A stretch of 20,971 nt of DNA from a virus. Where the stretch lies: IMG/VR virus record IMGVR_UViG_3300013286_000078, positions 1-20,971 of that record; one strand, 5' to 3'. Within the stretch, counting starts at the first letter, position 1. Every line of letters starts with the position of its first letter. The notes beneath the pieces are model-generated. The model ran no database searches and was not told the origin of the DNA. It saw only the letters and a list, made by a program, of their open reading frames with translations. The position numbers were made by a program, and so were the translations under genes. Of the stretch, positions 9,414 through 20,971 are shown in pieces.

Positions 9414-9920
9414 ATGCTAGACTTAGACACCGTAAAATACAATATAGAACGCTGGGTAGAAACTTTTGTAGAAGTTCCTAATCCTGCTCTAGGTGGCTGG
9501 TCACCATGTCCTTATGCTCGCAAGGCCAGATTAGATCAGGACTTTGAAGTGCGTCTGGGCACAGACCCATATCGTGATGCCATGAATGTTGGTGTGTCTG
9601 GATTATCTAAAAGTGTGGTTATCTATGCTTACAATACAGAAGATTGGTCGCATATGGATTTTGCCTACAAAATAGATCAGGCAAATCAACACTGGCTACT
9701 GCCACATGACCTATTGGGTCTTGAAGATCACCCAGGCGATCAAGAGGTTGTTAATGGTGTTGTCATGAATCAAGGCACTTACGCCCTGCTAATGATTCAA
9801 AAACTGTCTGACTTAAATGAAAAAGCTCAACTTGTTGCCCGAAAAGGATTTTATGATACCTGGCCAGAAGAGTATTTACAGGTGCTGTTTACCCACCGTA
9901 AAGATCCGCGGACAATTTAA
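9414..9920 (+). CDS. Protein of unknown function with a CPYARKA motif
   Basis: I do not recognise this 168-residue protein with confidence. The N-terminus has a motif WVETFVEVPNPALGGW followed by CPYARKARL near residues 32-40. The middle has a DHPGDQEVVNG stretch, followed by a hydrophobic YALLMIQKLSDL segment. The first part weakly recalls the W-x-N-LCPFA-K motif of DUF1415 proteins, but that is a memory-based guess. It begins three bases after the gp51 stop with no ribosome site, so translation is probably coupled to gp51. It is the last gene of the plus-strand hub group and overlaps the convergent transferase-like gene by 32 bases. No signal peptide or membrane segment is seen. Confidence 0.8.
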   Translation: MLDLDTVKYNIERWVETFVEVPNPALGGWSPCPYARKARLDQDFEVRLGTDPYRDAMNVGVSGLSKSVVIYAYNTEDWSHMDFAYKIDQANQHWLLPHDLLGLEDHPGDQEVVNGVVMNQGTYALLMIQKLSDLNEKAQLVARKGFYDTWPEEYLQVLFTHRKDPRTI

Positions 9921-10569
9921 TTTTACTATCTCGACGGCATAGCCAACGATAATGATCTACATCCAGACTCCAAACATCGCCAGTCCACCATTCAAATCCC
10001 TGCATGTCGGCCTTGTACACCGAGCTTCGTTCGTAGCCAGGTCCTAGATAAACATATTTGTAGCCAGCTTGTTTGGCCCAGGCAATTTCATGCTCAAGAC
10101 TGCGTGTGCCTAATTTTGTAGCAGGCAAACTGTAATCCCAAACAAACAGACTGGTTTCAATGGCTTGATCTGTATAGTGTCTTAACTTTGCCCAGGCCAC
10201 AAATACATCGTTTTGATAGTAGGCCATGAATCGATCTGTAGGCAGGCGTTGTCCTACTTCAAAGTATTTTTTAAATTTTTTGTAGTAGCAGTAGGCAGTG
10301 TAGATATGATCCATTTCTGTGAACTGACCAGGAGTAGGGTCTAGCAATACGGTAGCATCCGTCATTAACTCGTAGTTGGTCGCTGATGTGGTAACTTTGG
10401 TGCTGCGACTTTGATACCATTTAACTTGATTGTGTTCAATGGTTTGTAAAAATCCCATTTCCAGGGCTGCATTGTATTCTTCTATGGCCACATCAATGAG
10501 CTCGCAACCAAAGTGAAAAAACTCACCTTGCTCTTGGTGGCCAAAATTATGATCAAACTTTATTTTCAT
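9889..10569 (-). CDS. GNAT-fold protein related to aminoacyl-tRNA-protein transferases
   Basis: The 226-residue product has a C-terminal half that matches the pattern of arginyl/leucyl-tRNA-protein transferases (ATE/Bpt, GNAT fold). FVWDYSLPATKLGTRSLEHE (residues 142-161) is followed by AWAKQAGYKYVYLGPGY and SSVYKADMQGFEWW (residues 182-195). In Bpt-type enzymes the corresponding segment reads roughly LGTxxxxxEIxxAKxxGxxYVYLGYxIxxxxxMxYKAxFxP. The N-terminal half (HNFGHQEQG, several Trp/Tyr) is not recognised, and the cysteine-rich N-terminal motif of true ATE enzymes is not present. It may add an amino acid to a protein N-terminus or acylate something else. The gene is single on the minus strand, convergent with the 9414 gene and divergent from the 10610 operon. 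AGGG lies eight bases before ATG 10569. Confidence 0.68.
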   Translation of the reverse strand: MKIKFDHNFGHQEQGEFFHFGCELIDVAIEEYNAALEMGFLQTIEHNQVKWYQSRSTKVTTSATNYELMTDATVLLDPTPGQFTEMDHIYTAYCYYKKFKKYFEVGQRLPTDRFMAYYQNDVFVAWAKLRHYTDQAIETSLFVWDYSLPATKLGTRSLEHEIAWAKQAGYKYVYLGPGYERSSVYKADMQGFEWWTGDVWSLDVDHYRWLCRRDSKIKLSADLYGG

Positions 10570-10609
10570 TTAAATAACCCTATATTACTACTTATCAGGA
10601 GAATCCACA
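10569..10609 (+). promoter_or_regulatory. Divergent intergenic region with possible late promoter
   Basis: This short gap separates divergent genes. On the plus strand TTTAAATA (10569-10576) differs from the T4 late element at one base and would start transcription about 25 bases before the GTG at 10610. The ribosome site AGGAG is at 10597-10601. The element overlaps the ATG of the minus-strand gene, so it is only a candidate. Confidence 0.35.
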
Positions 10610-10948
10610 GTGGCAGACATTTATACAATATGGGCAAACAAAGAAGGTGAATTATCTGATCTGGAGTTTGCCACTAACATGCGAGGTTTTTTACAGCACC
10701 TGGTTGACGAAGGCAAAATGGAGTCATTCAGAATCACACGTTGTAAAATGGGCTTTCGCAGTGTGGCTGATATGCCCGAGTGGTTTATCATGATGGAGTT
10801 CAAGAACATGGCTCAGATTGATGAGGCATTTCATAGGGTTGCACCACTCAAAGGCGAGCTAGAAGATAAACATCGCAGTTTTAATCAGTTTGTCAGTGGT
10901 GACATACAGCATGCCCTGTGGCGAGATTGGCCTGATACCAATCTATGA
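10610..10948 (+). CDS. Small DUF6614-like protein (ferredoxin-like alpha/beta)
   Basis: This is a 112-residue protein starting with GTG at 10610, eight bases after AGGAG. The pattern resembles the bacterial DUF6614 family as I remember it: DLEFATNMRGFLQHLVDEGK, then FRITRCKMGF, EWFIMMEFKNMAQIDEAFHR, a GELEDKHRSFNQFVS segment and a short ALWRDWPD end. This suggests a compact dimeric alpha/beta barrel; the function is unknown. It is the first gene of a three-gene plus-strand operon, and its TGA stop overlaps the ATG of the next gene (ATGA). As it precedes a radical SAM enzyme, an accessory or binding role is possible, but nothing in the sequence proves it. Confidence 0.75.
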   Translation: MADIYTIWANKEGELSDLEFATNMRGFLQHLVDEGKMESFRITRCKMGFRSVADMPEWFIMMEFKNMAQIDEAFHRVAPLKGELEDKHRSFNQFVSGDIQHALWRDWPDTNL

Positions 10949-11457
10949 ATCAACTGACCCTGGCATTTGAGGCCACAGAATGCAACGGTTGGCCAAGTCT
11001 TAGATTTTGCATTGACCATGATATACAACAAGAAATTACTTTTTCAGGACCCAGTGCTGTGGTCACGCTTGATATAGATTTGCTAGATGGTGTCCACGAA
11101 TTAGAAATAGAACGCTACGCAAAAACCAACAACAATGTGGTATTTGTGGACAATAAAATTCTACAGGATCAATTGGTCACACTGACTGATATCTATGTTG
11201 ATGATGTAAAATTGCCAGATATGTTTAAATACTCTGGTACTTTTTATTATCATGACCAAGCAGTCAAGTCAGGCACAATATGGGGACCAAATGGCAAATA
11301 CATCTGGTCTTTTGAAACACCCTTGTTAAATTGGTTAATTTCACAACGCAAAAAAGGAAGTGACACAGTGGTTGACCTGTTTAATCCAGATAACACACAG
11401 CAACTACTGAATGATTTGGCCAAATTTAAATCTATAATCAATGACCAACAAAATTAA
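10945..11457 (+). CDS. Beta-rich protein of unknown function (possible carbohydrate-binding fold)
   Basis: This 170-residue protein has alternating hydrophobic strands (VVTLDIDLLDGVHELEIER, then VVFVDNKILQDQLVTLTDIY) and a later block GTIWGPNGKYIWSFETPLLN that ends in a helical tail. The strand pattern and the ITDIYVDDVKLPDMF-type segment suggest a beta-sandwich; I suspect a lectin or carbohydrate-binding-module-like domain, but this is inference. It overlaps the upstream gene by four bases (ATGA) and the downstream radical SAM gene by 17 bases, so the three are surely co-translated. A weakly similar protein (17039-17446) precedes the paralogous radical SAM enzyme on the other strand. This makes it a candidate substrate, carrier or targeting subunit. 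Confidence 0.78.
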   Translation: MNQLTLAFEATECNGWPSLRFCIDHDIQQEITFSGPSAVVTLDIDLLDGVHELEIERYAKTNNNVVFVDNKILQDQLVTLTDIYVDDVKLPDMFKYSGTFYYHDQAVKSGTIWGPNGKYIWSFETPLLNWLISQRKKGSDTVVDLFNPDNTQQLLNDLAKFKSIINDQQN

Positions 11458-12994
11458 AAAAATCTGTTTGATAAGCAGTGCGCAAATACAATACAGCAGA
11501 CCTCCTGCTGGCCTGGCATTCATGGCCGGAGTATGTGAACGCAACAATGTTGAATACAGCGTGATAGATTTGAACATAAATTTTTTACATCATGCAGGCA
11601 AGGAAGTTTGGAATCAGTGTTTTTTACACACCACAAATAATCTATCAAAACTACCGGCCAAATTAAATGAAATAGTAAATGAGTTTTTAGATCAAACCAT
11701 TGACCAGATTGTTGCCACCGGAGCCGACTGTGTGGCCATCACTACCTTAACACAGTTAAATCAGCAATGGGCTGAAAAGTTTTTGCGAAGATTACGACGT
11801 CGTGTTAATCTGCTGACCATTGGTGGTGGGCCTGGTCTAGGAGTACCTGACAGTTTTGGTCAGGACCCTACCATGACCTTTGGTCAACATCTGGCTCAAC
11901 AAAAATTGCTCGATTATTATGTGCTGGGCGAAGGCGATATTGTGTTTGAAAAATTTTTGCAGGGCAGTCGTAACGAACCAGGATTAAACACTAAAAATTG
12001 TCCTGAGACCCTGCAACCACAAATTGATGATCTAAATGGGCTGGCTATGCCCAGCTACAAAAATATTGATTTTAACTTGTATAAAAGTTTCTATGATAAG
12101 CCAGTGATATCAATTACCAGTAGTCGTGGCTGTGTGCGACGTTGTAGTTTTTGTGATGTTGGACATTTATGGAAGAAATTTAGATTTCGCAGTGGAAAAA
12201 GTGTAGCCGATGAAATGCTCAAACACCATCTGGACACCGGTGCCACAGACTTTTGGTTTACTGATAGTCTTATCAACGGTTCACTAAAACAGTTTATGGA
12301 TTTACTGGAGCAGTTGACCATTTACAAACAGCAGTATCCTAGCTTGGAAAAGTTAACCTACTCAGGACAGTTTATTATTCGCCCACAAGGCAGTCACCCT
12401 GATCGCATGTTCAAACTCATGAAGGAAACCGGATGCAATCATATACAGGTTGGAATAGAATCAGGCAGCGAGTCTGTTCGCAATCACATTGGCAAAAAAT
12501 TCAGCAATGCTGATATTGATTATCATTTTAAAATGTGTGAGAAATACCAAATCAAAAACTGGTTACTAATGATGGTTGGGTATCCAACTGAAACTGAGCA
12601 AGATTTTCTTGACTCGCTAGACATGCTGACTAGATATCAAAAATATGTAGTCAATGACACTGCATTTGGAGTGCAGGCAAATGGCCCTGCTTCCATATTG
12701 CCCAATACTCCGTTGGCATCTCAGCAGAATGAACTGGGCATAATATACGAGCACGAAGGCAGTTCAAATTCCTGGACAACCGCAGATAATCCTGGCCTGT
12801 CGTTCAATGAGCGGCATCTTAGATGGATTAAATTAATCGAACATGCTGTAACGTTAGGATACAATTTGCCAGTTGAGATTGACATTTATTTGACAACTAA
12901 CCAACAAGCAGTGCTGTCAAACAAAGAAAATCAAACTGTCAAAACTAAAAAAGTAATTCCTATCTATACTACGTCATCTAGCATATATTCATAA
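11441..12994 (+). CDS. B12-binding-type radical SAM enzyme (copy A)
   Basis: This is a 517-residue radical SAM protein with a Rossmann-like N-terminal domain of the cobalamin-binding class. Residues about 5-180 have RPPAGLAFMAGVCERNNVEYS, ATGADCVAITTL, IGGGPGLG and YYVLGEGDIVFEKFL, the usual order in B12-radical SAM proteins, although the classical DxHxxG base is not seen. The catalytic [4Fe-4S] motif is CVRRCSFC (Cys231, 235, 238), followed by a TIM-barrel with TDSLINGS, HIQVGIESGSESVR and MMVGYPTET. The reaction is unknown; members methylate, cleave or rearrange unreactive carbons. It is a clear paralog of the 15549-17042 protein (shared TDSLINGS, KKFSxADIDYH, GYPTET). It overlaps the preceding gene by 17 bases. 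Tandem hairpins follow its stop. Confidence 0.9.
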   Translation: MTNKIKKICLISSAQIQYSRPPAGLAFMAGVCERNNVEYSVIDLNINFLHHAGKEVWNQCFLHTTNNLSKLPAKLNEIVNEFLDQTIDQIVATGADCVAITTLTQLNQQWAEKFLRRLRRRVNLLTIGGGPGLGVPDSFGQDPTMTFGQHLAQQKLLDYYVLGEGDIVFEKFLQGSRNEPGLNTKNCPETLQPQIDDLNGLAMPSYKNIDFNLYKSFYDKPVISITSSRGCVRRCSFCDVGHLWKKFRFRSGKSVADEMLKHHLDTGATDFWFTDSLINGSLKQFMDLLEQLTIYKQQYPSLEKLTYSGQFIIRPQGSHPDRMFKLMKETGCNHIQVGIESGSESVRNHIGKKFSNADIDYHFKMCEKYQIKNWLLMMVGYPTETEQDFLDSLDMLTRYQKYVVNDTAFGVQANGPASILPNTPLASQQNELGIIYEHEGSSNSWTTADNPGLSFNERHLRWIKLIEHAVTLGYNLPVEIDIYLTTNQQAVLSNKENQTVKTKKVIPIYTTSSSIYS

Positions 12995-13006
12995 GCGGTA
13001 CTAAAA

Positions 13007-13060
13007 GATTAGCTACGCTAATCTATGTCTTTCGCTAAAGCTCAGACATGATTTTTATTA
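13007..13060 (+). terminator. Tandem hairpins with T-rich tail, likely terminator
   Basis: A perfect 7-bp stem GATTAGC/GCTAATC with a 3-base loop (13007-13023) is followed by ATGTCT/AGACAT (13025-13049) with an inner GCT/AGC pairing, then a T-rich run (ATTTTTATTATTTG). This follows the radical SAM stop by 12 bases. On the minus strand the first hairpin is followed by TTTT, so it may also stop the opposing operon. Confidence 0.6.
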
Positions 13061-13092
13061 TTTGTTTTTATACGCATTATCCAGATTACGCG

Positions 13093-13150
13093 GTCACAAT
13101 TCACCGTATGCACGGTGAACTGACTCTACATTATCCGAGTGTAGCTGTCA
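13093..13150. repeat. Competing hairpins (mutually exclusive pairing)
   Basis: TTCACCG/CGGTGAA (13100-13119, loop TATGCA) is a perfect 7-bp stem. CTACA/TGTAG (13126-13144) is a second stem. TGAC at 13121-13124 can pair either with GTCA at 13093-13096, extending the first stem, or with GTCA at 13147-13150, extending the second. Confidence 0.5.
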
Positions 13151-13181
13151 TTTATTATAATGAGATTAGAAAAAGTTTACT

Positions 13182-13241
13182 AACCTGGTGTTTTGTATAA
13201 TTTTCTTAACATCTGTATAAAAAAGTTATACCAAACCTGGT
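13182..13241. repeat. AT-rich direct and inverted repeats
   Basis: AACCTGGT occurs at 13182-13189 and 13234-13241. Between them GTATAA is present at 13195 and 13215, and its inverse TTATAC at 13226-13231, giving a 6-bp palindrome with a five-base spacer (13215-13231). The block looks like a regulator binding site or a promoter; TATAAT is at 13196-13201 on the plus strand without a good -35. Confidence 0.4.
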
Positions 13242-13298
13242 TTTGCAAGGTTTTCTGCGGAGGCGGTTGACCGGTACCCCCTACTCAAGCTTCACATA

Positions 13299-13379
13299 TC
13301 AACGGAACCCTAGTGACCCAATAATAAATCCAAGTCCTATGAGCATGGGTCGTATCTTTTTCAACGGAGCCCAAACCAT
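13299..13379 (-). CDS. Possible 26-residue membrane peptide
   Basis: A small ORF starts at ATG 13379, six bases after AAGG. The peptide is MVWAPLKKIRPMLIGLGFII followed by GSLGFR: a basic N-terminal third and then a hydrophobic stretch of about 13 residues, as expected of a tiny inner-membrane protein. It is downstream of the GIY-YIG gene on the same strand. Its two ends carry a 12-base direct repeat. Such short ORFs arise by chance, so confidence is low. Confidence 0.33.
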   Translation of the reverse strand: MVWAPLKKIRPMLIGLGFIIGSLGFR

Positions 13380-13392
13380 TTGTTGCCTTAAG

Positions 13393-13440
13393 TTAGCAAT
13401 TGCCTTTGACACACAAGATTATCCGGACCGGGTATCTCAC
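13393..13440 (-). CDS. Possible 15-residue peptide behind a strong ribosome site
   Basis: GTG at 13440 follows a full AAGGAGG Shine-Dalgarno sequence by four bases, the strongest in the window. The frame encodes MRYPVRIILCVKGNC and then TAA. It lies just downstream of the hairpin at the GIY-YIG stop. It may be a translated leader or regulator, not a functional peptide, or the purine run may belong to a structured RNA. Confidence 0.22.
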   Translation of the reverse strand: MRYPVRIILCVKGNC

Positions 13441-13454
13441 CGTTCCTCCTTGCG

Positions 13455-13472
13455 GATCTAGCTGCCTAGATC
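13455..13472 (-). repeat. Perfect 7-bp hairpin at the end of the GIY-YIG gene
   Basis: GATCTAG/CTAGATC with loop CTGC overlaps the GIY-YIG stop codon. No T run follows on the minus strand, so it is not a standard terminator. It directly precedes the AAGGAGG sequence at 13445-13451 and might protect the RNA or control that site. Confidence 0.4.
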
Positions 13473-13968
13473 AAACAGAGTCGTTTAATTTACGAATATG
13501 ACTACCATGTACACGAACAGATATCTGCCCATTATAATAGTCATTGGTTTCTAATACTTTTCTTTGGAATTGTTCTCTAGCTTCTATGTAACTACATTCG
13601 GCCTTGGACCTACAGTAGTATAATATTTCGCGAGTAAAGTTGCCTGCGCCTAAGCGTTCGATGTCTTGATTGAGTTCTATGTTGCTGCCGTAGTAGGTTT
13701 GCCAGTCTGATTCTATTTTGCCTTTGATTTTTTTGCGTTTCTTTTTACCGTTTTTTAATTTTACTACCTTATATGTTGTCCTACTAAATTTTGCTAATTT
13801 TTTTCCAATATATCGCCTACCGGTTGAGTTATTTGTGATCAAATAAACAAAACCGACACAATCTTCGGGCAATTCCGTGAGTTGAGTGTTTTCGTAAAGC
13901 CATACCATGGACTTATAGTTATCCAGGATCTTGAAATACTCATTAATTTGTTTCCCACCCCACAGCAT
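13471..13968 (-). CDS. GIY-YIG nuclease, Seg-like
   Basis: This is a small GIY-YIG-family endonuclease of the type often found free-standing in T4-like phages (Seg-like homing endonucleases). In the 165-residue product the GIY equivalent is GFVYLITNNSTG (Tyr42) and the YIG is RRYIGKK (Tyr53-Gly55). A basic KNGKKKRKKIKGK stretch, ESDWQTYYGS and SYIEAREQFQ with the candidate catalytic glutamate follow. The conserved part begins about residue 36, so start choice is uncertain. ATG 13968 overlaps the upstream radical SAM gene by 26 bases; ATG 13908 avoids overlap, and GTG 13989 is also possible. None has a good ribosome site. It ends at the structured non-coding region, which could be its target or a remnant of its insertion. 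It may simply be a resident mobile gene in the operon. Confidence 0.85.
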   Translation of the reverse strand: MLWGGKQINEYFKILDNYKSMVWLYENTQLTELPEDCVGFVYLITNNSTGRRYIGKKLAKFSRTTYKVVKLKNGKKKRKKIKGKIESDWQTYYGSNIELNQDIERLGAGNFTREILYYCRSKAECSYIEAREQFQRKVLETNDYYNGQISVRVHGSHIRKLNDSV

Positions 13969-15043
13969 ACTGTTCGTCCACCACTGCACTGCTGCATTTT
14001 TGACTGCACTCTACCCAGGATTTGGTGGCATCAGTAAATCCCTGACTACATTTATTCCACAGTGGATCTGCAATGATTTCTTCAAATGTTCTGTTGTGCA
14101 AGCTCATGCTCTCGCGATGCTTTGCAAAAAAACTATCTTTCCACTGGATAGTTTTATCACCGTAGGTTAAACTATGATACGGGAAACTGACCCAGCTGCA
14201 AGGAAACACAACTCCTTCGGCATTAACATACACACCACGATTGCCAACCTCGCATAAAGGCGTAATAGGCTGGTCTTTGTACTTGTTACAAGTTTTAACG
14301 TACTGTAGACGGTTGTAGTCAAGATAATCGCCATTGTTTTGTTCTCGTCCGCTGATGTTTATAGTTTCACGTTCATATCTGTGAGTCTTACTAATAAACT
14401 CAGATCTGGGTTCCAATGGATCTGCAACGCCGCCATACCCGCCGTACACACTGCCAAACTTGGTACTATAAGTCCATTGCACAGTGTCCATTGCTAATTT
14501 TTGGGCCTGTGCTACAATGTTGTCCTGGTGATCTTGGTTAAACGCAAATATAATAGTGGCCCAGGCCAAAAACACATCTCGGTTTGTTTCGCGCACAGCC
14601 TGTATGCCTTGCATGATACTATCAAAATTGCTGTTGACACGATACAGGTTATTGCTGGCATCATCGTAGCCATCTATGCTAAAATTAATAGTGTCACGGT
14701 CGTTCAGCACACTGGCCAATTCTCTCCACCATTCAGATTTTTTATAACTACCGTTGGTGATAGTAAAGATGTGTATGTTTGGATTGACTGACTTGATATA
14801 ACGACAAATTTCAATGTATTCTTTACAGTATATGGGATCACCTACATCACCGCACATGGTAACACGTTTGACTTGAGTGCGTAATCGTTCTTCTGTAAAA
14901 AACTTCTTTACAAAATCCAATGTCATGTTTTTGTTCAGCCACGGAGTATCTGGATGTTCGGTGCGTGGACAACGAGGACATTTGAGTGCGCATACAGCAC
15001 TGGGCTCCAGGTGCCAGTGATAAAATTGCCAATTTAAAGCCAT
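13943..15043 (-). CDS. Radical SAM protein with SPASM-type C-terminus (copy 1)
   Basis: This is a 366-residue radical SAM enzyme. The N-terminal cluster motif CALKCPRC gives Cys18, Cys22 and Cys25; MCGDVGDPIYCKEY takes the place of the usual GGEP strand, and a NFSIDGYDD barrel segment follows. The C-terminal third has auxiliary-cluster cysteines in a SPASM/Twitch arrangement: CEVGNRGVYVNAEGVVFPC, then WNKC, and VECSQKC near the end. Such proteins commonly modify peptides or proteins, although some act on small molecules. Its nearest relative here is the 17443-18393 protein, with the same C-A-L-x-C-P-x-C motif and G-x2-G/x-x-PxxC layout. It overlaps the SDR stop by 10 bases, with AAAGG seven bases before ATG 15043. 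The substrate is unknown. Confidence 0.88.
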   Translation of the reverse strand: MALNWQFYHWHLEPSAVCALKCPRCPRTEHPDTPWLNKNMTLDFVKKFFTEERLRTQVKRVTMCGDVGDPIYCKEYIEICRYIKSVNPNIHIFTITNGSYKKSEWWRELASVLNDRDTINFSIDGYDDASNNLYRVNSNFDSIMQGIQAVRETNRDVFLAWATIIFAFNQDHQDNIVAQAQKLAMDTVQWTYSTKFGSVYGGYGGVADPLEPRSEFISKTHRYERETINISGREQNNGDYLDYNRLQYVKTCNKYKDQPITPLCEVGNRGVYVNAEGVVFPCSWVSFPYHSLTYGDKTIQWKDSFFAKHRESMSLHNRTFEEIIADPLWNKCSQGFTDATKSWVECSQKCSSAVVDEQYAVGWETN

Positions 15044-15552
15044 AGGTCTAGCCTTTTGATCATGGGATCCGCTGCCATAATTTTAATTCGTTCAGCAAGA
15101 TCCGCCACCGGCATTTTGGTAATGTTTAAATGAGCAATCATGGCTGTGTCGATTGGGCCTGGATTAACAATTTTCATACTGCATCGTGCTGTGGCCAACA
15201 TGGCATCGTGCATCATCTGCAGAGATTGCTTGTGTTGACGATAAGCCCAGTACTCATAATCAAGTGCCAGTTCCAGGCGTGGTTGAGTGATTACCTTGCT
15301 GCCCACAGTGACAATTGTTTTTGTTTTGTCGTATTTCCAGTGCTCAAAAAAGTATTCCAACACAAGTTCTTGTCCACGTCCATCATACGCACAGTTAACT
15401 ACCATGTCGTAGTCCAAGAAGTCTACACCCCACAGATCTATTTTGTTAATATCGTGGCCACCAGACACCGACACGCATTTAACTTGGTGTTCGGCATACA
15501 CGTTGGCCAAGGCTTGTGCCAGTCCAGTTTGTCCAGTTATTAGTATTTTCAT
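15034..15552 (-). CDS. Short-chain dehydrogenase/reductase-like protein
   Basis: This is a NAD(P)-binding Rossmann protein of the SDR superfamily. MKILITGQTGLAQALA carries the N-terminal dinucleotide loop (Gly7, Gly10). VVNCAYDG (residues 51-58), VTVGS (Ser85), the catalytic pair Tyr104-x3-Lys108 (YRQHK) and NPGPIDTAM after strand 6 (residues 130-138) are all present. At 172 residues it is much shorter than the usual 230-300, so the C-terminal substrate lid is reduced. It probably oxidises, reduces or epimerises a small molecule or sugar linked to the surrounding radical SAM enzymes. Its ATG overlaps the TGA of the B12-type radical SAM gene (ATGA) and its end overlaps the next SPASM gene, so it is co-translated with both. 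Confidence 0.85.
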   Translation of the reverse strand: MKILITGQTGLAQALANVYAEHQVKCVSVSGGHDINKIDLWGVDFLDYDMVVNCAYDGRGQELVLEYFFEHWKYDKTKTIVTVGSKVITQPRLELALDYEYWAYRQHKQSLQMMHDAMLATARCSMKIVNPGPIDTAMIAHLNITKMPVADLAERIKIMAADPMIKRLDLWL

Positions 15553-17042
15553 GCTGGTTTTAACTCAAATATTTTTGCAGGAGTTTTTGTAAATTCACGG
15601 CTGCGTTCTGCTAATTTTTTAAGAATTAACAACTCTTCTTTGACTCTGGGCATAGGATAACCCAGTTCCACTGACAATTCGTGTATTTCTAAACGACGAC
15701 GAATGCGCTCACGCAATGTGTTGCCAGGGTTCACGCCAGAAGTCCATCCGTATAAACTGTCAAATTTAATATTACTTTCTAAACTAAGTTCTAATTCATC
15801 AACCATGTTCATGATTGGAGTATGCTCATACAAGTGCATGGTAAATCCCCAACGAGCCATGAATATAGTGCCCATGTCTGCATATGTTTTGTAACGACGC
15901 AAGGCATCTAAATTGGCCTGGTGATCCTCTAGTGTTTCTGTTGGATAACCCACAATCATTAACAACACATTGGGAATATTCCAACGCCCACACTGCTCTA
16001 AATGATAATCAATATCTGCATCTGAAAACTTCTTTTTCATGTGTGTTCGTACACGATTACTGAAACTTTCAATGCCGGTGATCAACATTGTGCAACCTGC
16101 CAGATGCATGAGCTCATAACTGCGTTCACGCTGTTGACTACTGGGTCTGCAAATAAACTGCCCTTGATACTTGATTGGCGCCAATTCTGGACGCTGTTGC
16201 TTTCTATTATACAGTAGTTCGTTAAACTTGTCAAAGTTACTGATACTGCCGTTGATCAAACTGTCTGTAAACTCAAATTCAGTAATGCCATAGTCATCAA
16301 AATGTCGTTCCATTTCGGCCACAATATGTTCAGCACGACGATATCTAAACTGCGGCCAAGTAAGTTCAATGTCGCAAAATGTACATTTACGCACACATCC
16401 GCGACTGCCTGTAATTAATATCTTTTTATTTTGATAACGTGGCATGTCAAAATATTCATAAGTTGGCATGGGCAATGCAGTAAGGTCTTCAATTTGCACA
16501 GGATTATTACAGTTGATACCAGGATAATTGGCATTGCCTTTGAGCAGGCAATCCAGCGCAACTTCGCCCTCGCCAAAAATTACATAATCAGCCAAGTTGT
16601 TTTTTATAATATGCTCACCAAAGATTTCCTTGTTGCTGGCACTAATGTCGGTGCTAATGCCCGCACCCCCAACCACACTAGGAATGTCACTAATGGTAGG
16701 ATACCAGTCTAGTACCTTGGCTGCAATACGATTGCTAAAATAACTAAACACACTAAAGCACACAAACTCTGTTTCTGCGTTGATGTTTTTTTGCAACTGC
16801 TCAACAAACACACGGCGAATTTTAATTTCTAAATCAGCAGGCAAGTGATCCATGGAAAAAGTTGACCACGATTCTAACATGTCCCAGTCATCGCTGGATA
16901 ACTCATAAAACAAATCTAAATTGTAGTCAAAGATCTTGACATTGTAATCGTTTTCCTTGGCCACACTAGATAGTATGCTCAATGCAGCAGGCGGAAAGTT
17001 GGTTTCCACTTTGGGCAAAGATACCAGCACAATGTTTTTCAT
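15549..17042 (-). CDS. B12-binding-type radical SAM enzyme (copy B)
   Basis: This is a 497-residue paralog of the 11441-12994 enzyme. The N-terminal Rossmann-like region has SLPKVETNFPPAALSILSSV, FVCFSVFSY, VVGGAGIS and DYVIFGEGEVALDCLL, typical of the cobalamin-binding domain of this superfamily, again without an obvious DxHxxG. The cluster motif is CVRKCTFC (Cys216, 220, 223). The barrel has EFTDSLINGS, LITGIESFSNRVR, KKFSDADIDYH and LMIVGYPTET, all shared with copy A. The C-terminus differs more (a TSGVNPGNTLRERIRRR segment). The ATG overlaps the stop of the beta-rich gene by four bases. Two divergent copies suggest two related substrates or two steps of one pathway. Confidence 0.9.
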   Translation of the reverse strand: MKNIVLVSLPKVETNFPPAALSILSSVAKENDYNVKIFDYNLDLFYELSSDDWDMLESWSTFSMDHLPADLEIKIRRVFVEQLQKNINAETEFVCFSVFSYFSNRIAAKVLDWYPTISDIPSVVGGAGISTDISASNKEIFGEHIIKNNLADYVIFGEGEVALDCLLKGNANYPGINCNNPVQIEDLTALPMPTYEYFDMPRYQNKKILITGSRGCVRKCTFCDIELTWPQFRYRRAEHIVAEMERHFDDYGITEFEFTDSLINGSISNFDKFNELLYNRKQQRPELAPIKYQGQFICRPSSQQRERSYELMHLAGCTMLITGIESFSNRVRTHMKKKFSDADIDYHLEQCGRWNIPNVLLMIVGYPTETLEDHQANLDALRRYKTYADMGTIFMARWGFTMHLYEHTPIMNMVDELELSLESNIKFDSLYGWTSGVNPGNTLRERIRRRLEIHELSVELGYPMPRVKEELLILKKLAERSREFTKTPAKIFELKPA

Positions 17043-17446
17043 TTAAGGAACTCTTTTATTTCTTTAACTAATTCTGGATACAAGTTATTGATGCCAATAT
17101 ACTTGTCGTACATGTTTTCTGCAGACTTTTCCTCTATGGTCAAATGAGCAAGTCGTCCGGCAATGTCTTTATTTTTGTAATCTTTATAAAAGTTTTCGCC
17201 AATGGTAAACTCTAACTTATGATCTTGAACCAGTACATCAGCTAACCAGTAGTTTAACATATAATTGTTAAATCTCACAACAGGTTTAACACCATACGGT
17301 TTAAACTCTACTTCGACCACAGCCGGCAAACGATCAACAGTGCCGGTCAACACAGCGGTATTGGCCGACGCTGCCACAAGAGTCTGATTGACAAAAATCT
17401 TGATAGATTCAAGCGATTGGGTATGTGATACTTCAATGGTATTCAT
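17039..17446 (-). CDS. Small beta-rich protein of unknown function
   Basis: This is a 135-residue protein starting MNTIEVSHTQSLESIKIFVN. I chose ATG 17446 because it overlaps the TGA of the SPASM radical SAM gene as ATGA; a start eight codons earlier (a non-ATG codon at 17470) is less natural. The first 90 residues alternate hydrophobic strands (VVEVEFKPYGVKPVVRFNNY, then LADVLVQDHKLEFTIGENF), and the end is helical (LYPELVKEIKEFLK). It weakly resembles the 170-residue protein at 10945-11457, which also lies directly before a B12-type radical SAM gene. No known family is recognised; a substrate, carrier or binding partner is possible. Confidence 0.75.
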   Translation of the reverse strand: MNTIEVSHTQSLESIKIFVNQTLVAASANTAVLTGTVDRLPAVVEVEFKPYGVKPVVRFNNYMLNYWLADVLVQDHKLEFTIGENFYKDYKNKDIAGRLAHLTIEEKSAENMYDKYIGINNLYPELVKEIKEFLK

Positions 17447-18393
17447 CTTAATTGTATTTCCTGGCGCCACTTATCTAACGCAAACGGTTGTCCGCTAGTC
17501 GCAGTACAACTATCACGACATATCTTTAATGGTGTTTGATTCCAAGACTGCCAAACAGCCTGCCACTCAGGCAAGGCATGTACTTGATCAAACACCTGGG
17601 GTTGACTGCGATTGTGGAATATGTTTCTTAATTCCTCGCCAGCAGCATCCGGATATTCAATCTTGCCCCCAATGTAACAACAAGGTACCCATTCTCCAGT
17701 GGCCATTAAATAAGCCTGCCCTGTGGTTTCATAATGGCATTCAATAGGGCCTGCCAACGCAACAGGTTCTGTGCTAATTTTAGTTAACCACTGTATTTTT
17801 TGTGTTACGGGGCGATCTGTATATTTAGTGCGGAACCAAGTGAATCCTAGGTCACGTGCCAGTTGTTCGGCCTCAGCAACTTGATGTTGGTTGTATTCAA
17901 ACACCAACATGTCCCAATGGGCCGATCCTCCTGCATCAATAAACGCCGTTGCGTTATTGATAATCTTTGACCAATTGCTATTCCTGCGATAGATATGATT
18001 GGTATCTTCAAGTCCGTCTATGCTAAACACAGCATAGTCAAGCGGTCCGTTAAGTATGCCGGCCAATTCACGCCACCACGCTTCATTTCTTAAACTGCCA
18101 CTGGTGTTAATACCTAGCACAATTCCTGGATTGACTGATTTAAACCAGCTAAAGATATCCAAACATTCTCGAGCCGCCGCAGGTTCACCGTAGTTGCCAC
18201 ACAAAAACATTTTGTCCAACTGCTTGACCCAATCAACCGGGCATAGGCGTTGTATATCAGCCAAAGATAACTCGGCCGAAGTCATTAATGGATTTGGCTC
18301 ATCATCATGATAACGAGCACACTGTGGGCATGCTAATGCACAAGCGGTAGTGGGCTCAATTTGTAAAATTTTTTTAGTAGCAAGTTCGAACAT
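17443..18393 (-). CDS. Radical SAM protein with SPASM-type C-terminus (copy 2)
   Basis: This is a 316-residue radical SAM enzyme. The cluster motif is CALACPQC (Cys18, 22, 25 counted from ATG 18393); FLCGNYGEPAAARECLDIF is the GGEP-like strand and YAVFSIDGLEDTNHIYRRN is the typical barrel segment. The C-terminal cysteines (IECHYETTGQAYLMATGEW followed by VPCCYIGG, then ICRDSC) are a SPASM/Twitch set for auxiliary iron-sulfur clusters. The first in-frame codon, TTG at 18396, is less likely than ATG at 18393, which shares one base with the gp46 TGA (TGATG). Its layout is that of copy 1 at 13943, but it is shorter. The partner and substrate are unknown. Confidence 0.88.
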   Translation of the reverse strand: MFELATKKILQIEPTTACALACPQCARYHDDEPNPLMTSAELSLADIQRLCPVDWVKQLDKMFLCGNYGEPAAARECLDIFSWFKSVNPGIVLGINTSGSLRNEAWWRELAGILNGPLDYAVFSIDGLEDTNHIYRRNSNWSKIINNATAFIDAGGSAHWDMLVFEYNQHQVAEAEQLARDLGFTWFRTKYTDRPVTQKIQWLTKISTEPVALAGPIECHYETTGQAYLMATGEWVPCCYIGGKIEYPDAAGEELRNIFHNRSQPQVFDQVHALPEWQAVWQSWNQTPLKICRDSCTATSGQPFALDKWRQEIQLR

Positions 18394-20156
18394 CAAGCAA
18401 TTTCAACATCCGTATTATAGCTGGTAAAGCCATTTTCCTTGACTACTTTAAGTATGTTTTCCACTCGCCCAGACAATTCATCTCTATGGCTTACTAGCCA
18501 AATTGATTTGTGCCGTTCACGGCTCATTTGCTTTAGCAAGGCCAAGGCATTTTCCACACCTTGTGTGTCCAATCCGTTGTCAATCATTTCATCAATAAAC
18601 AAAATGTTGATAGGAGTATACAAACTTTCAAACACATCTCGGAATGCCCAACTCATACTTAGGATCAAGCGATTGCGCTCACCGCGACTCAAGTTATCAA
18701 AATCCAACTCGCGTCCTAGTTCTTCAATACTAACAGTTAAGTCGTTTTGAAATACCACAGTGTGTGGTAAACCAATACGATCCAGATAATGTGTTAGTCG
18801 TGCATTTAGATAACTTAAATTTTGTTCAATAATTTTTTTACGAATAAACGAATCTTTGTTGGTCAACAGTTTGAGCAAAAACTCTTGATGTTCTTGCAAG
18901 CGGGTAAGCTCGTTAAGTGTGTCATAATTGACTTCTTGCAGTGCTTGACTTTGCATGTCAGAAATTTGTTCTGCATAAGGATCTGTTTCCAGTTGTTTAA
19001 CATCCAATTGTGTTTGTAGATTGGCCAAGTTTGTGCGATGCTGGATGGCATCTTCCTCTTGATCATAGAACCTGGTGGGTGGCTTGCCCAACTTACCCAA
19101 CGCTTCAGATGCTTCTTGTAACGAAGCCAAGCCAACAACATATTCTTCATGACTTGTTGTTGCTTGAGCCAGCTCATTCTTTTTAGTTGTTAATACTTGT
19201 TCATGTTTGCTATCGTGAAACGCTTGCCCGCAAGTATGACAAGTATGTGCCTCTAAAGACTCAATTTCTTTTTTTAACTTCTTAATTGTTTTTTCTTCGC
19301 GATCTAAATCTAACTTGCCTCTACTGATAGCAGTGGAGAAATCGTTGATGTCCTTGCGTTTCTGCTCCCATAACGCATGATCCTTGTGTGCCTGTATTTC
19401 GGCATCAATATTAATTTCTTGTAAACTGGCCAAGGCAGACTGCAGCTTTTCTGTGTCTTCTTTGTGTTTGGTTATCCATAAGACTTGTCTGCGTTTAAGT
19501 GCTTCAATTTGCTCTTCGATACGCACATTGGCTTCTTGAATGGCACGACTGCGAAACTCTTCTTTGGTAATATCCTCTTTGGTGGTACGATTAAGTTCTT
19601 TAATTTTTTCTGCACGTTCTGACAACATGGTGATGCCCAACAACTGCTCAATGATTGTGCGTTGGCTGTTGGCATTTAAACTCAAGAAAGGCTCAGTATA
19701 AGTGTTCAAGGCCATGATATGCTTGAACATATCGTGCGACATGCCCAGGATGTCTTCAATGGCCTGTTGAGTTTCACGACTATCGCCTTGTGCGCTGTCT
19801 TCTACCTCTGTTTCTTTGTTGTCTATATAAAACTTTAATAAGTTGGGTTTGCGACCACGCTCAATACGATACTCTTGATTGCCCACTGAAAAGTCCAGGC
19901 TAACCAACATATTTTTGCCATTGGTTTTGTTTACTAGATTATCTTTACGAATATTGCTTAATGCTGTGCCATACAAGGCATAGCTAAGTGCATTGATAAT
20001 AGTGGTCTTGCCAGTGCCGTTACGAGAACCATCGCCGCCCAAGTCTAAGTTTTCTCCCAGCACCAGGGTTAAATCTTGGCGATCAAAGTCAATGGCCTGG
20101 GTGCTGTTACCCACACTCATAAAATTACGAACAGTTAGATCTTTTATTTTAATCAT
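18393..20156 (-). CDS. 46: Recombination endonuclease subunit gp46 (Rad50/SbcC-like ATPase)
   Basis: This is the ATPase half of the T4 gp46/gp47 complex, which resects DNA ends for recombination-dependent replication and host DNA breakdown. The 587 residues (T4 gp46: 560) contain the whole SMC-type layout. Walker A is at residues 43-52 (NGTGKTT), coiled coil spans about 180-300, and the zinc hook CHTC is at 306-309. A second coil follows; the ABC signature LSRGER is at 489-494, Walker B LFIDEMID at 519-526 and the switch histidine in VSHRDE at 555-560. Gp47 is not in the window. The ATG overlaps the stop of the upstream radical SAM gene by four bases and its end overlaps the downstream one, so a core replication gene sits inside the radical SAM operon. 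Confidence 0.96.
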   Translation of the reverse strand: MIKIKDLTVRNFMSVGNSTQAIDFDRQDLTLVLGENLDLGGDGSRNGTGKTTIINALSYALYGTALSNIRKDNLVNKTNGKNMLVSLDFSVGNQEYRIERGRKPNLLKFYIDNKETEVEDSAQGDSRETQQAIEDILGMSHDMFKHIMALNTYTEPFLSLNANSQRTIIEQLLGITMLSERAEKIKELNRTTKEDITKEEFRSRAIQEANVRIEEQIEALKRRQVLWITKHKEDTEKLQSALASLQEINIDAEIQAHKDHALWEQKRKDINDFSTAISRGKLDLDREEKTIKKLKKEIESLEAHTCHTCGQAFHDSKHEQVLTTKKNELAQATTSHEEYVVGLASLQEASEALGKLGKPPTRFYDQEEDAIQHRTNLANLQTQLDVKQLETDPYAEQISDMQSQALQEVNYDTLNELTRLQEHQEFLLKLLTNKDSFIRKKIIEQNLSYLNARLTHYLDRIGLPHTVVFQNDLTVSIEELGRELDFDNLSRGERNRLILSMSWAFRDVFESLYTPINILFIDEMIDNGLDTQGVENALALLKQMSRERHKSIWLVSHRDELSGRVENILKVVKENGFTSYNTDVEIA

Positions 20157-20971
20157 AGTAAATTTTGTAGTTCCGGTAATACCTGCGCCAATGATTGTTT
20201 TCTATGAACATCCATTAGATTTGTTAATCTTTTAAATTCTATCAATTGATGACTGGTATCGTTGGACCACATATAGTTTAACACATTATTCCACTTGGTT
20301 GCAAGCATATCGGCACCATTGTTTCGGCACCATACCATGTGATTTTTTATTAATATATCCAGTCGTGTTTTGTGTTCCAGCGGTAATGTAGAAACAGTCA
20401 AATGATCTGGGCTAATCATGGTATTCAATGAAAATTTTAAAAGATTTAATATTCCGTTGGTATGCCATGTTTTTTGTAAATCAATTAAACTTGACACATT
20501 TAATAAGCCCACAGTTGAAGTCACGGTAAAATTTACATGTGGACATTCGGTTTTAACTAACTCTAAATTTGATTCAATGGTTTTCCAATTGCTTCCAGAT
20601 CTAACATACTCGGCCACATCTCCAATGGCATCCAAGCTGGCGCCAATTGTAATATTTTTAAATTTCTTCCAAAGATCCAACACAGATATGTCTTGATATT
20701 GTAAAGTTGTAAAATTAGTGTTGTATGAAATTTCTAAATTGGTATTACCGCACCTGATAAGAGCCTTTAATATTTCGTAGTGTTCTACAGCCAACAATGG
20801 TTCACCACCGGCAAAGTATATCTTTTCAGCCAGCGGTAGATACTCTAATATTTCTGTCAGGCTAGATTTTCTTTGGCCAGAACGCAGAGCTGATTTTACT
20901 GAATTGGTATTACCAAATAATTCTGTTTCTTCCTGTGCAATGGCACTACTAAAATAGCCACTGCACATACG
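20153..20971 (-). CDS. Radical SAM protein, Twitch-type, cut by the right edge
   Basis: The frame is open to the edge of the window, so the 5' end is missing; 272 codons are visible. The first residues read R-M-C-S-G, which fits the last cysteine of a CxxxCxxC motif, so the methionine there is internal and not the start. The GGEP motif follows at IYFAGGEPLLA, then YNTNFTT and IGASLDAIGDVAEYVRSGSN. The C-terminal end (FKRLTNLMDVHRKQSLAQVL, then PELQNLL) resembles Twitch-domain radical SAM proteins common in phages. The TGA stop overlaps the ATG of gp46 (ATGA). The function is unknown. It is the most upstream visible gene of the minus-strand operon. Confidence 0.85.
   Translation of the reverse strand, partial: RMCSGYFSSAIAQEETELFGNTNSVKSALRSGQRKSSLTEILEYLPLAEKIYFAGGEPLLAVEHYEILKALIRCGNTNLEISYNTNFTTLQYQDISVLDLWKKFKNITIGASLDAIGDVAEYVRSGSNWKTIESNLELVKTECPHVNFTVTSTVGLLNVSSLIDLQKTWHTNGILNLLKFSLNTMISPDHLTVSTLPLEHKTRLDILIKNHMVWCRNNGADMLATKWNNVLNYMWSNDTSHQLIEFKRLTNLMDVHRKQSLAQVLPELQNLL

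Follow-up and report, generated by a model that had tools for sequence, protein, structure and literature searches.

A slot beside gp46 in T4-like phages collects exchangeable radical SAM cassettes, among them a B12-type enzyme paired with a predicted CBM60-like protein

Introduction

Aquatic T4-like phages often carry genes for radical S-adenosylmethionine (SAM) enzymes, for which a substrate has rarely been proposed. It is already known that T4-like phages can carry many radical SAM genes (PMC5332604) and that radical SAM cassettes sit in hypervariable islands (PMC7029224). The nearest described case is that of the pelagimyophages, whose islands mix such cassettes with O-antigen-type glycosyltransferases (PMC7029224). 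Here we analyse a cluster of five radical SAM genes in the virus record IMGVR_UViG_3300013286_000078, a linear IMG/VR fragment of 20,971 bp that is referred to below, at its whole length, as the window. Most of the cluster lies in a slot next to the core recombination gene gp46, where related phages exchange small sets of enzymes and partners. One of the constant sets joins a B12-type radical SAM enzyme to a small beta-sandwich protein that, in one of its two forms, is predicted to resemble a carbohydrate-binding module of the CBM60 family. A tentative reading is that the sets tailor glycans.

A cassette slot beside gp46

The genes that make up the cluster and border the slot are as follows, with the basis of each assignment in brackets.

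10945-11457, plus strand: bsA, 170 aa, predicted CBM60-like beta-sandwich partner of B12a, which it overlaps by 17 bases (AlphaFold2, PDB fold match and adjacency)
11441-12994, plus strand: B12a, B12-type radical SAM enzyme, 517 aa (PF04055 66.3 bits, weak B12-binding match; family alignment)
13471-13908, minus strand: GIY-YIG endonuclease-like gene that bounds the slot on the right (matches to homing-endonuclease PHROGs and to phrog_447, E = 4e-37; conserved border)
13943-15043, minus strand: SPa, SPASM/Twitch-like radical SAM enzyme, 366 aa (PF04055 47 bits; paired with the SDR)
15034-15552, minus strand: short-chain dehydrogenase/reductase (SDR), 172 aa (PDB profile search, alignment, motif check)
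15549-17042, minus strand: B12b, B12-type radical SAM enzyme, 497 aa (PF04055 47.7 bits; 485 viral relatives)
17039-17470, minus strand: bsB, 143 aa, beta-sandwich partner of B12b (AlphaFold2; position 5' of B12 enzymes; CBM60 match only suggestive)
17443-18396, minus strand: SPb, SPASM/Twitch-like radical SAM enzyme, 317 aa (PF04055 31.3 bits)
18393-20156, minus strand: gp46/SbcC-like core recombination gene that bounds the slot on the left (phrog_77, E = 1e-99; conserved throughout the loci compared)
20153-20971, minus strand: Twitch radical SAM enzyme that has lost its N-terminus at the contig end (NF033640 229 bits)

The record also holds T4-type head genes (gp23, the prohead protease and gp20) and a baseplate protein. 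Its cluster forms two convergent transcription units and a solitary gene. The minus-strand unit runs Twitch, gp46, SPb, bsB, B12b, SDR, SPa and GIY-YIG, with overlapping junctions, so that gp46 lies inside it and the GIY-YIG gene closes it; the plus-strand unit consists of DUF6614, bsA and B12a; and a gene with an ATE_C domain stands alone on the minus strand. With the longest open reading frames (ORFs) the junctions measure -4, -17, -10, -4, -4, -28, -4 and -4. Homologues suggest ATG starts at 17446 for bsB and at 18393 for SPb, which bring the overlaps to 1-17 bases, and they also set the start of the GIY-YIG gene, whose longest ORF would be 13471-13989. An earlier reading of the sequence by a model, the original prediction, had proposed five radical SAM genes within 11 kb (two B12-type, two SPASM-type and one Twitch-type), an SDR and a transferase-fold protein, packed with 1-17 base overlaps in two operons. 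This inventory is borne out: PF04055 matches at five places in the record, all above the curated cut-off; the SDR has its motif, an invariant Ser-Tyr-Lys set and PDB profile matches; the transferase-fold protein matches ATE_C above the cut-off; and the overlaps agree once the ATG starts of bsB and SPb are used, with the ATE gene standing apart.

Since loci fetched by means of B12 or SPASM proteins are biased, related loci were fetched by gp46 alone. In 75 of the 80 loci so obtained, the interval between gp46 and the GIY-YIG gene is closed, and the slot counts given here refer to these. They belong to uncultured T4-like phages, some on contigs of more than 300 kb. No radical SAM gene is present in 27 slots, one in 29, two in 18 and three in 1, so that 48/75 slots contain at least one; 19/75 are empty altogether, and the gp46 and GIY-YIG borders stay in place in these. 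The record studied here, with three radical SAM genes in the slot and one on each side, reaches five, above the 0-3 of its relatives. Among phages in culture, those closest by their gp46 (PA5oct, Phosso and Atu_ph07) have no radical SAM gene annotated there.

Certain genes keep fixed company in the slot. A B12 gene comes with a bs gene (bsA or bsB type) in 8/8 slots (Fisher 1.8e-7), an SDR with a SPASM-like enzyme in 14/14 (Fisher 3e-4) and a pyridoxal phosphate (PLP) aminotransferase-like enzyme with bsA in 4/4 (8e-4). Between B12 and SDR cassettes there is a weak association (5/8 vs 9/67, P = 0.005), and between B12 and SPASM-like enzymes this unbiased sample shows none (Fisher P = 0.60). 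On a quickly built gp46 tree of 76 tips, slot content changes 39 times and the presence of B12, found at 9 tips, changes 8 times; given the kind of tree, both counts are upper-side estimates. Phages exchange these cassettes with one another. A second hotspot lies in the interval between gp47 and gp46, which is occupied in 46/69 loci, most often by Twitch enzymes, and it is here that the Twitch gene of the window sits. Both in this gap and in related slots, a sulfotransferase (PF03567) and SGNH-like proteins can occur.

The original prediction had joined the five enzymes, the SDR and the transferase in one multistep pathway, and had named independent occurrence in related phages, each gene with unrelated neighbours, as the finding that would refute it. 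When this neighbourhood comparison is run across related phages, the answer is mixed: the genes do assort independently, yet they move in fixed pairs (B12 enzyme with CBM60-like protein, SDR with SPASM-like enzyme), and the slot that receives them is each time the same. The single pathway is not supported, B12 and SPASM-like enzymes being unassociated and the ATE gene unlinked. What survives is the broader proposal of an accessory cluster that installs a modification; a surface glycan, one of the targets then listed, is the likeliest of the roles considered below.

The B12 enzyme and its beta-sandwich partner

Across the viral loci, 92/100 B12 genes adjoin a bs gene on the same strand, nearly always with an overlap. 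Among the 8 without one, 3 lie at contig ends, 2 encode more distant proteins of 657 aa and 2 have another small partner. Where the partner is of the bsB type, it lies directly 5' of the B12 enzyme in 38/38 cases. On a tree of the 94 partnered B12 proteins, the type of partner (bsA or bsB) and its position change once each, against at least 24 and at least 14 changes, respectively, when the labels are shuffled. The B12-bs pair is thus a unit of long standing whose two members descend jointly, as expected of a two-component enzyme.

Some variants of this arrangement were also seen. In two loci another small protein, aspartyl/asparaginyl hydroxylase-like by eye, takes the place of bs upstream of the B12 enzyme, near tail-fibre-like genes (L011:6143-6628 and L012:5131-5586). 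A tandem of two B12 enzymes and two bsA genes stands beside SPASM-like and SDR genes in loci L057-L066, L069 and L084, and in many of these more short radical SAM genes (twitch:208, c16:104) come next. A candidate bs-B12 fusion of 687 aa in L016, with a C-terminal extension that looks beta-rich by eye, was rejected after hhalign comparison with both bsA and bsB gave negative results.

Neither bsA nor bsB has a match in Pfam or PHROG, and a single-sequence search with bsA returned none. AlphaFold2 models of the two reach a mean predicted local distance difference test score of 91.7 for bsA and 88.8 for bsB. When the bsA model was compared with 350,542 PDB chains, the only matches with E < 0.001 were the CBM60 structures 2xhh (1.7e-4) and 2xfd (2.6e-4), the latter with a template-modelling (TM) score of 0.71 on the target; one of these two structures was solved with cellobiose. 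Within the bsA family, 2/47 members give sub-threshold matches to the Pfam CBM60 profile (PF16841), the best with E 0.011. We thus describe bsA as predicted to be CBM60-like and stop short of placing it in the CBM60 family, with which its modelled fold agrees, because its profile score falls below the Pfam cut-off. In viral structure space, all significant matches of bsA are uncharacterised Caudovirales proteins. Proteins of the bsA type also pair with the PLP aminotransferase-like enzyme and with a Twitch enzyme, which suggests that a CBM60-like protein serves several enzyme classes and fits a shared recognition subunit. In loci L018, L047, L048, L079, L222, L261, L264 and L268, the PLP aminotransferase-like gene (cluster c37) alternates with bsA in the slot.

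The enzymes of the cassettes

B12a and B12b are paralogues with 35% identity. Each combines a radical SAM core with a B12-binding domain below threshold (PF02310, 22.2 and 17.8 bits; cut-off 32.1), and each matches B12-radical NCBIfam models. The CX3CX2C motif (CVRRCSFC and CVRKCTFC) and a GGxG motif are invariant in the family alignment. The best NCBIfam model is TIGR04072, with 95 bits against an equivalog cut-off of 360, and all equivalog scores remain far below their cut-offs. The family was confirmed in 485 viral stretches and in 29 among 84,980 species genomes, a comparison made with search patterns derived from viral sequences. Its closest cellular relatives lie on short contigs of metagenome-assembled genomes, some of which carry the phage-type bsA partner. 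Two large Bdellovibrionia contigs (L090 and L091) bear two adjacent B12-family genes with no bs partner, followed in L091 by a Twitch-type gene; the neighbouring genes on these contigs suggest no substrate. In a BLAST search of 50,697 phage records, bsA, B12b and ATE had no match, and B12a and SPb gave weak matches only.

SPa and SPb share 34% identity over 189 residues. Both have CX3CX2C and cysteine-bearing, SPASM/Twitch-like C-termini, with cysteines that are by eye fewer than a full SPASM set; those of SPa form CX12GX4C. The Twitch protein at 20153-20971 scores 229 bits against NF033640 (cut-off 170) over model positions 126-397 of 398. Since coverage starts at position 126, its N-terminus and the region where CX3CX2C is expected are cut off by the contig end. 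The SDR is short (172 aa). Its TGxxxGxG motif, Ser85, Tyr104 and Lys108 are invariant in the alignment, YxxxK is present in 39/39 homologues, and a profile search gave 100 PDB matches.

What the cassettes may do

Our preferred reading, held tentatively, is that these are exchangeable glycan-tailoring cassettes in which the CBM60-like partner presents a saccharide to the B12-radical enzyme. The cluster would then be a cassette hotspot beside gp46 where this genome has gathered self-contained cassettes of three kinds: a B12-type enzyme with its own beta-sandwich partner, present twice (bsA-B12a and bsB-B12b); a SPASM-like enzyme with a short SDR (SPa-SDR); and single SPASM-like or Twitch enzymes. 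The bs partner would hold a saccharide or glycoconjugate before the B12 enzyme, which would use a 5'-deoxyadenosyl radical and probably host-supplied cobalamin to alter an unactivated carbon, the simplest change being C-methylation. The SPASM-like enzyme and the SDR could oxidise a sugar alcohol and then re-reduce it, resulting in net inversion. The product may alter a host surface polysaccharide or a virion glycan, with cassettes being swapped as hosts change. The sulfotransferase and SGNH-like genes of related loci fit a glycan reading, as does the mixing with glycosyltransferases reported for pelagimyophages (PMC7029224).

A bolder version, which we consider somewhat unlikely, is that the pair is a virus-enriched two-component enzyme, a B12 radical SAM protein with a separate CBM60-like lectin subunit, that carries out radical chemistry on intact glycans, and that plug-in cassettes at one address vary host-surface or virion glycans. 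If true, this would be an unexpected viral use of B12-radical chemistry and a new route for phage glycan diversification. The fixed pairing of a B12 enzyme with a carbohydrate-binding-like protein also provides a testable handle, namely a two-gene expression unit and a first substrate class.

Several points weigh against a glycan-tailoring role. The glycan substrate is one that we infer, and B12 and SPASM-like enzymes act on peptides too. Cobalamin use by the B12 enzymes is putative because their Pfam B12-binding scores lie below the cut-off. Beta-sandwich folds are common, any calcium site in bsA is putative, and the TM score normalised on the length of bsA is only 0.49. For bsB, a CBM60 structure appears at rank 4 with E 0.02, a weak match, and the homology of bsA and bsB rests on profile comparison (hhalign probability 85%). 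Lastly, several neighbours that were guessed by their looks to be sugar enzymes have no match in Pfam or the PDB.

The main alternative, which we judge unlikely, casts the bs proteins as substrates, modified by the adjacent radical enzyme and then acting in the virion or the host. Strict one-to-one pairing, gene overlap and co-inheritance speak for it, as does the single invariant lysine of bsA, K60. Peptide and protein modification is also common among B12 and SPASM radical enzymes (reviews PMC5682303, PMC8326336). However, a shared recognition subunit accounts better for the pairing of bsA with PLP aminotransferase-like and Twitch enzymes. The B12 enzymes score far below the cut-offs of maturases for ribosomally synthesised and post-translationally modified peptides (RiPPs), with 67.2 and 71.9 bits for TIGR03975 against 281.85, and the one short-ORF candidate for a precursor peptide that was examined was rejected (see below), leaving none. 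The partner, moreover, evolves faster than the B12 enzyme, and almost no residue that could serve as a target is invariant in both bsA and bsB.

Two further explanations are each improbable, and about equally so. The cassettes could be auxiliary metabolic genes for a host small-molecule pathway, with no glycan or virion target, the light in which marine T4-like viral genomes that carry as many as 12 radical SAM genes together with iron-sulfur (Fe-S) carriers have been described (PMC5332604). Against this, the B12 family is rare in cellular genomes (the 485 viral stretches vs 29), and a carbohydrate-binding partner is unexpected for an enzyme of soluble metabolites. Alternatively, the slot could be a hypervariable hotspot of unrelated cargo in which five radical SAM genes came together by chance with no shared purpose. 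The fast turnover on the gp46 tree, the independence of B12 and SPASM-like enzymes and the 19 empty slots agree with such accumulation, but radical SAM enzymes with their partners are strongly favoured in the slot, and the co-occurrence of B12 and SDR cassettes exceeds expectation.

Modification of nucleotides or phage DNA (base hypermodification) against host nucleases is very unlikely: radical SAM and PLP enzymes are used by phages in base hypermodification and the slot adjoins gp46 and the GIY-YIG gene, but these two genes are also there when the slot is empty, the window has no visible DNA-modification enzyme, and the CBM60-like partner would have no obvious role.

Neighbouring genes and a structured RNA

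Two further genes lie on the other side of the GIY-YIG gene from the slot.

9889-10569, minus strand: ATE_C-domain transferase-like protein (PF04377 27.4 bits)
10610-10948, plus strand: DUF6614 protein (PF20319 78.5 bits)

The PF04377 match of the first exceeds its cut-off of 25; only this ATE_C domain does so, the equivalog of the full two-domain arginyl-tRNA-protein transferase (NF002344) scoring 22.8 against 252. Among 34 intervals from the GIY-YIG gene to the baseplate gene, ATE is present in 20 and DUF6614 in 19, as a recurring pair across the GIY-YIG gene from the slot. Their presence is independent of the radical SAM content of the slot (P = 0.73), which places both outside the pathway. 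The ATE gene is inverted in the window relative to locus L009 (L009:12456-13280). In the case of other neighbours, cluster c14 was guessed to be a fucosyltransferase and c27 a 2-oxoglutarate oxygenase; neither has a Pfam or PDB profile match, and these guesses stay unverified.

Directly downstream of the GIY-YIG gene, on the minus strand, lies a conserved RNA at 13256-13412. RNAalifold, applied to 52 sequences, gives 6 helices with 33 base pairs in all, and 10 of these pairs show compensatory changes on both sides. In this alignment, 98.9% of cells are paired, and double-change cells number 82 vs 18.9 in shuffles; sliding the pairing partners abolishes the covariation signal. Rfam has no match to this RNA, and a covariance model also picks it up at the corresponding position in relatives that are further away. 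A second conserved block, at 12992-13167, comes after it. On the same strand, near the 3' end of the RNA, a terminator-like hairpin followed by a T run can be seen by eye at about 13000-13025. The only short-ORF candidate for a RiPP precursor that was examined, of 26 codons within 12995-13470, was rejected since its homologues vary in length out of frame and the stretch shows base-pair covariation; a plus-strand ORF in the same stretch (cluster 26) was rejected on the same two grounds.

Comparison with known systems

A limited literature search found no description of a pair formed by a B12 enzyme and a CBM60-like protein, and the locus can be set beside several systems that share some of its features. 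Among cultured phages, the Arenbergviridae member Pseudomonas phage PA5oct has the nearest gp46 (53%) and a similar order of gp47, gp46, baseplate and portal genes, whereas its corresponding interval is without an annotated radical SAM gene. The genome TARA_ERS488813_N000010 likewise carries many radical SAM genes (12) in one T4-like phage, but these were read as Fe-S metabolism, and the accessible part of that account gives no cassette structure or partners (PMC5332604). The host-recognition island of pelagimyophages is closer, being T4-like and hypervariable, with radical SAM cassettes gained between close relatives and glycosyltransferases nearby. However, that island sits between VrlC and gp14, and the present slot between gp46 and the GIY-YIG gene, and neither a B12 enzyme with a CBM60-like partner nor an SDR pair appears in the accessible part of its description (PMC7029224).

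At the level of the proteins, the B12 enzymes resemble known B12-dependent radical SAM enzymes (TIGR04072, the PhpK family and RiPP C-methyltransferases) in that a putative B12-type N-terminal domain precedes a radical SAM core bearing CX3CX2C. They differ in that they form a mostly viral family with a separate bs partner and score far below the equivalogs. The fold predicted for bsA is that of the calcium-dependent CBM60/CBM36 modules (2xfd, 2xhh; E 1.7e-4 to 2.6e-4, TM on the target about 0.7), although the sequence of bsA stays below the Pfam cut-off. Known modules of this kind are domains attached to plant-wall enzymes, whereas bsA is a separate protein paired with a radical enzyme.

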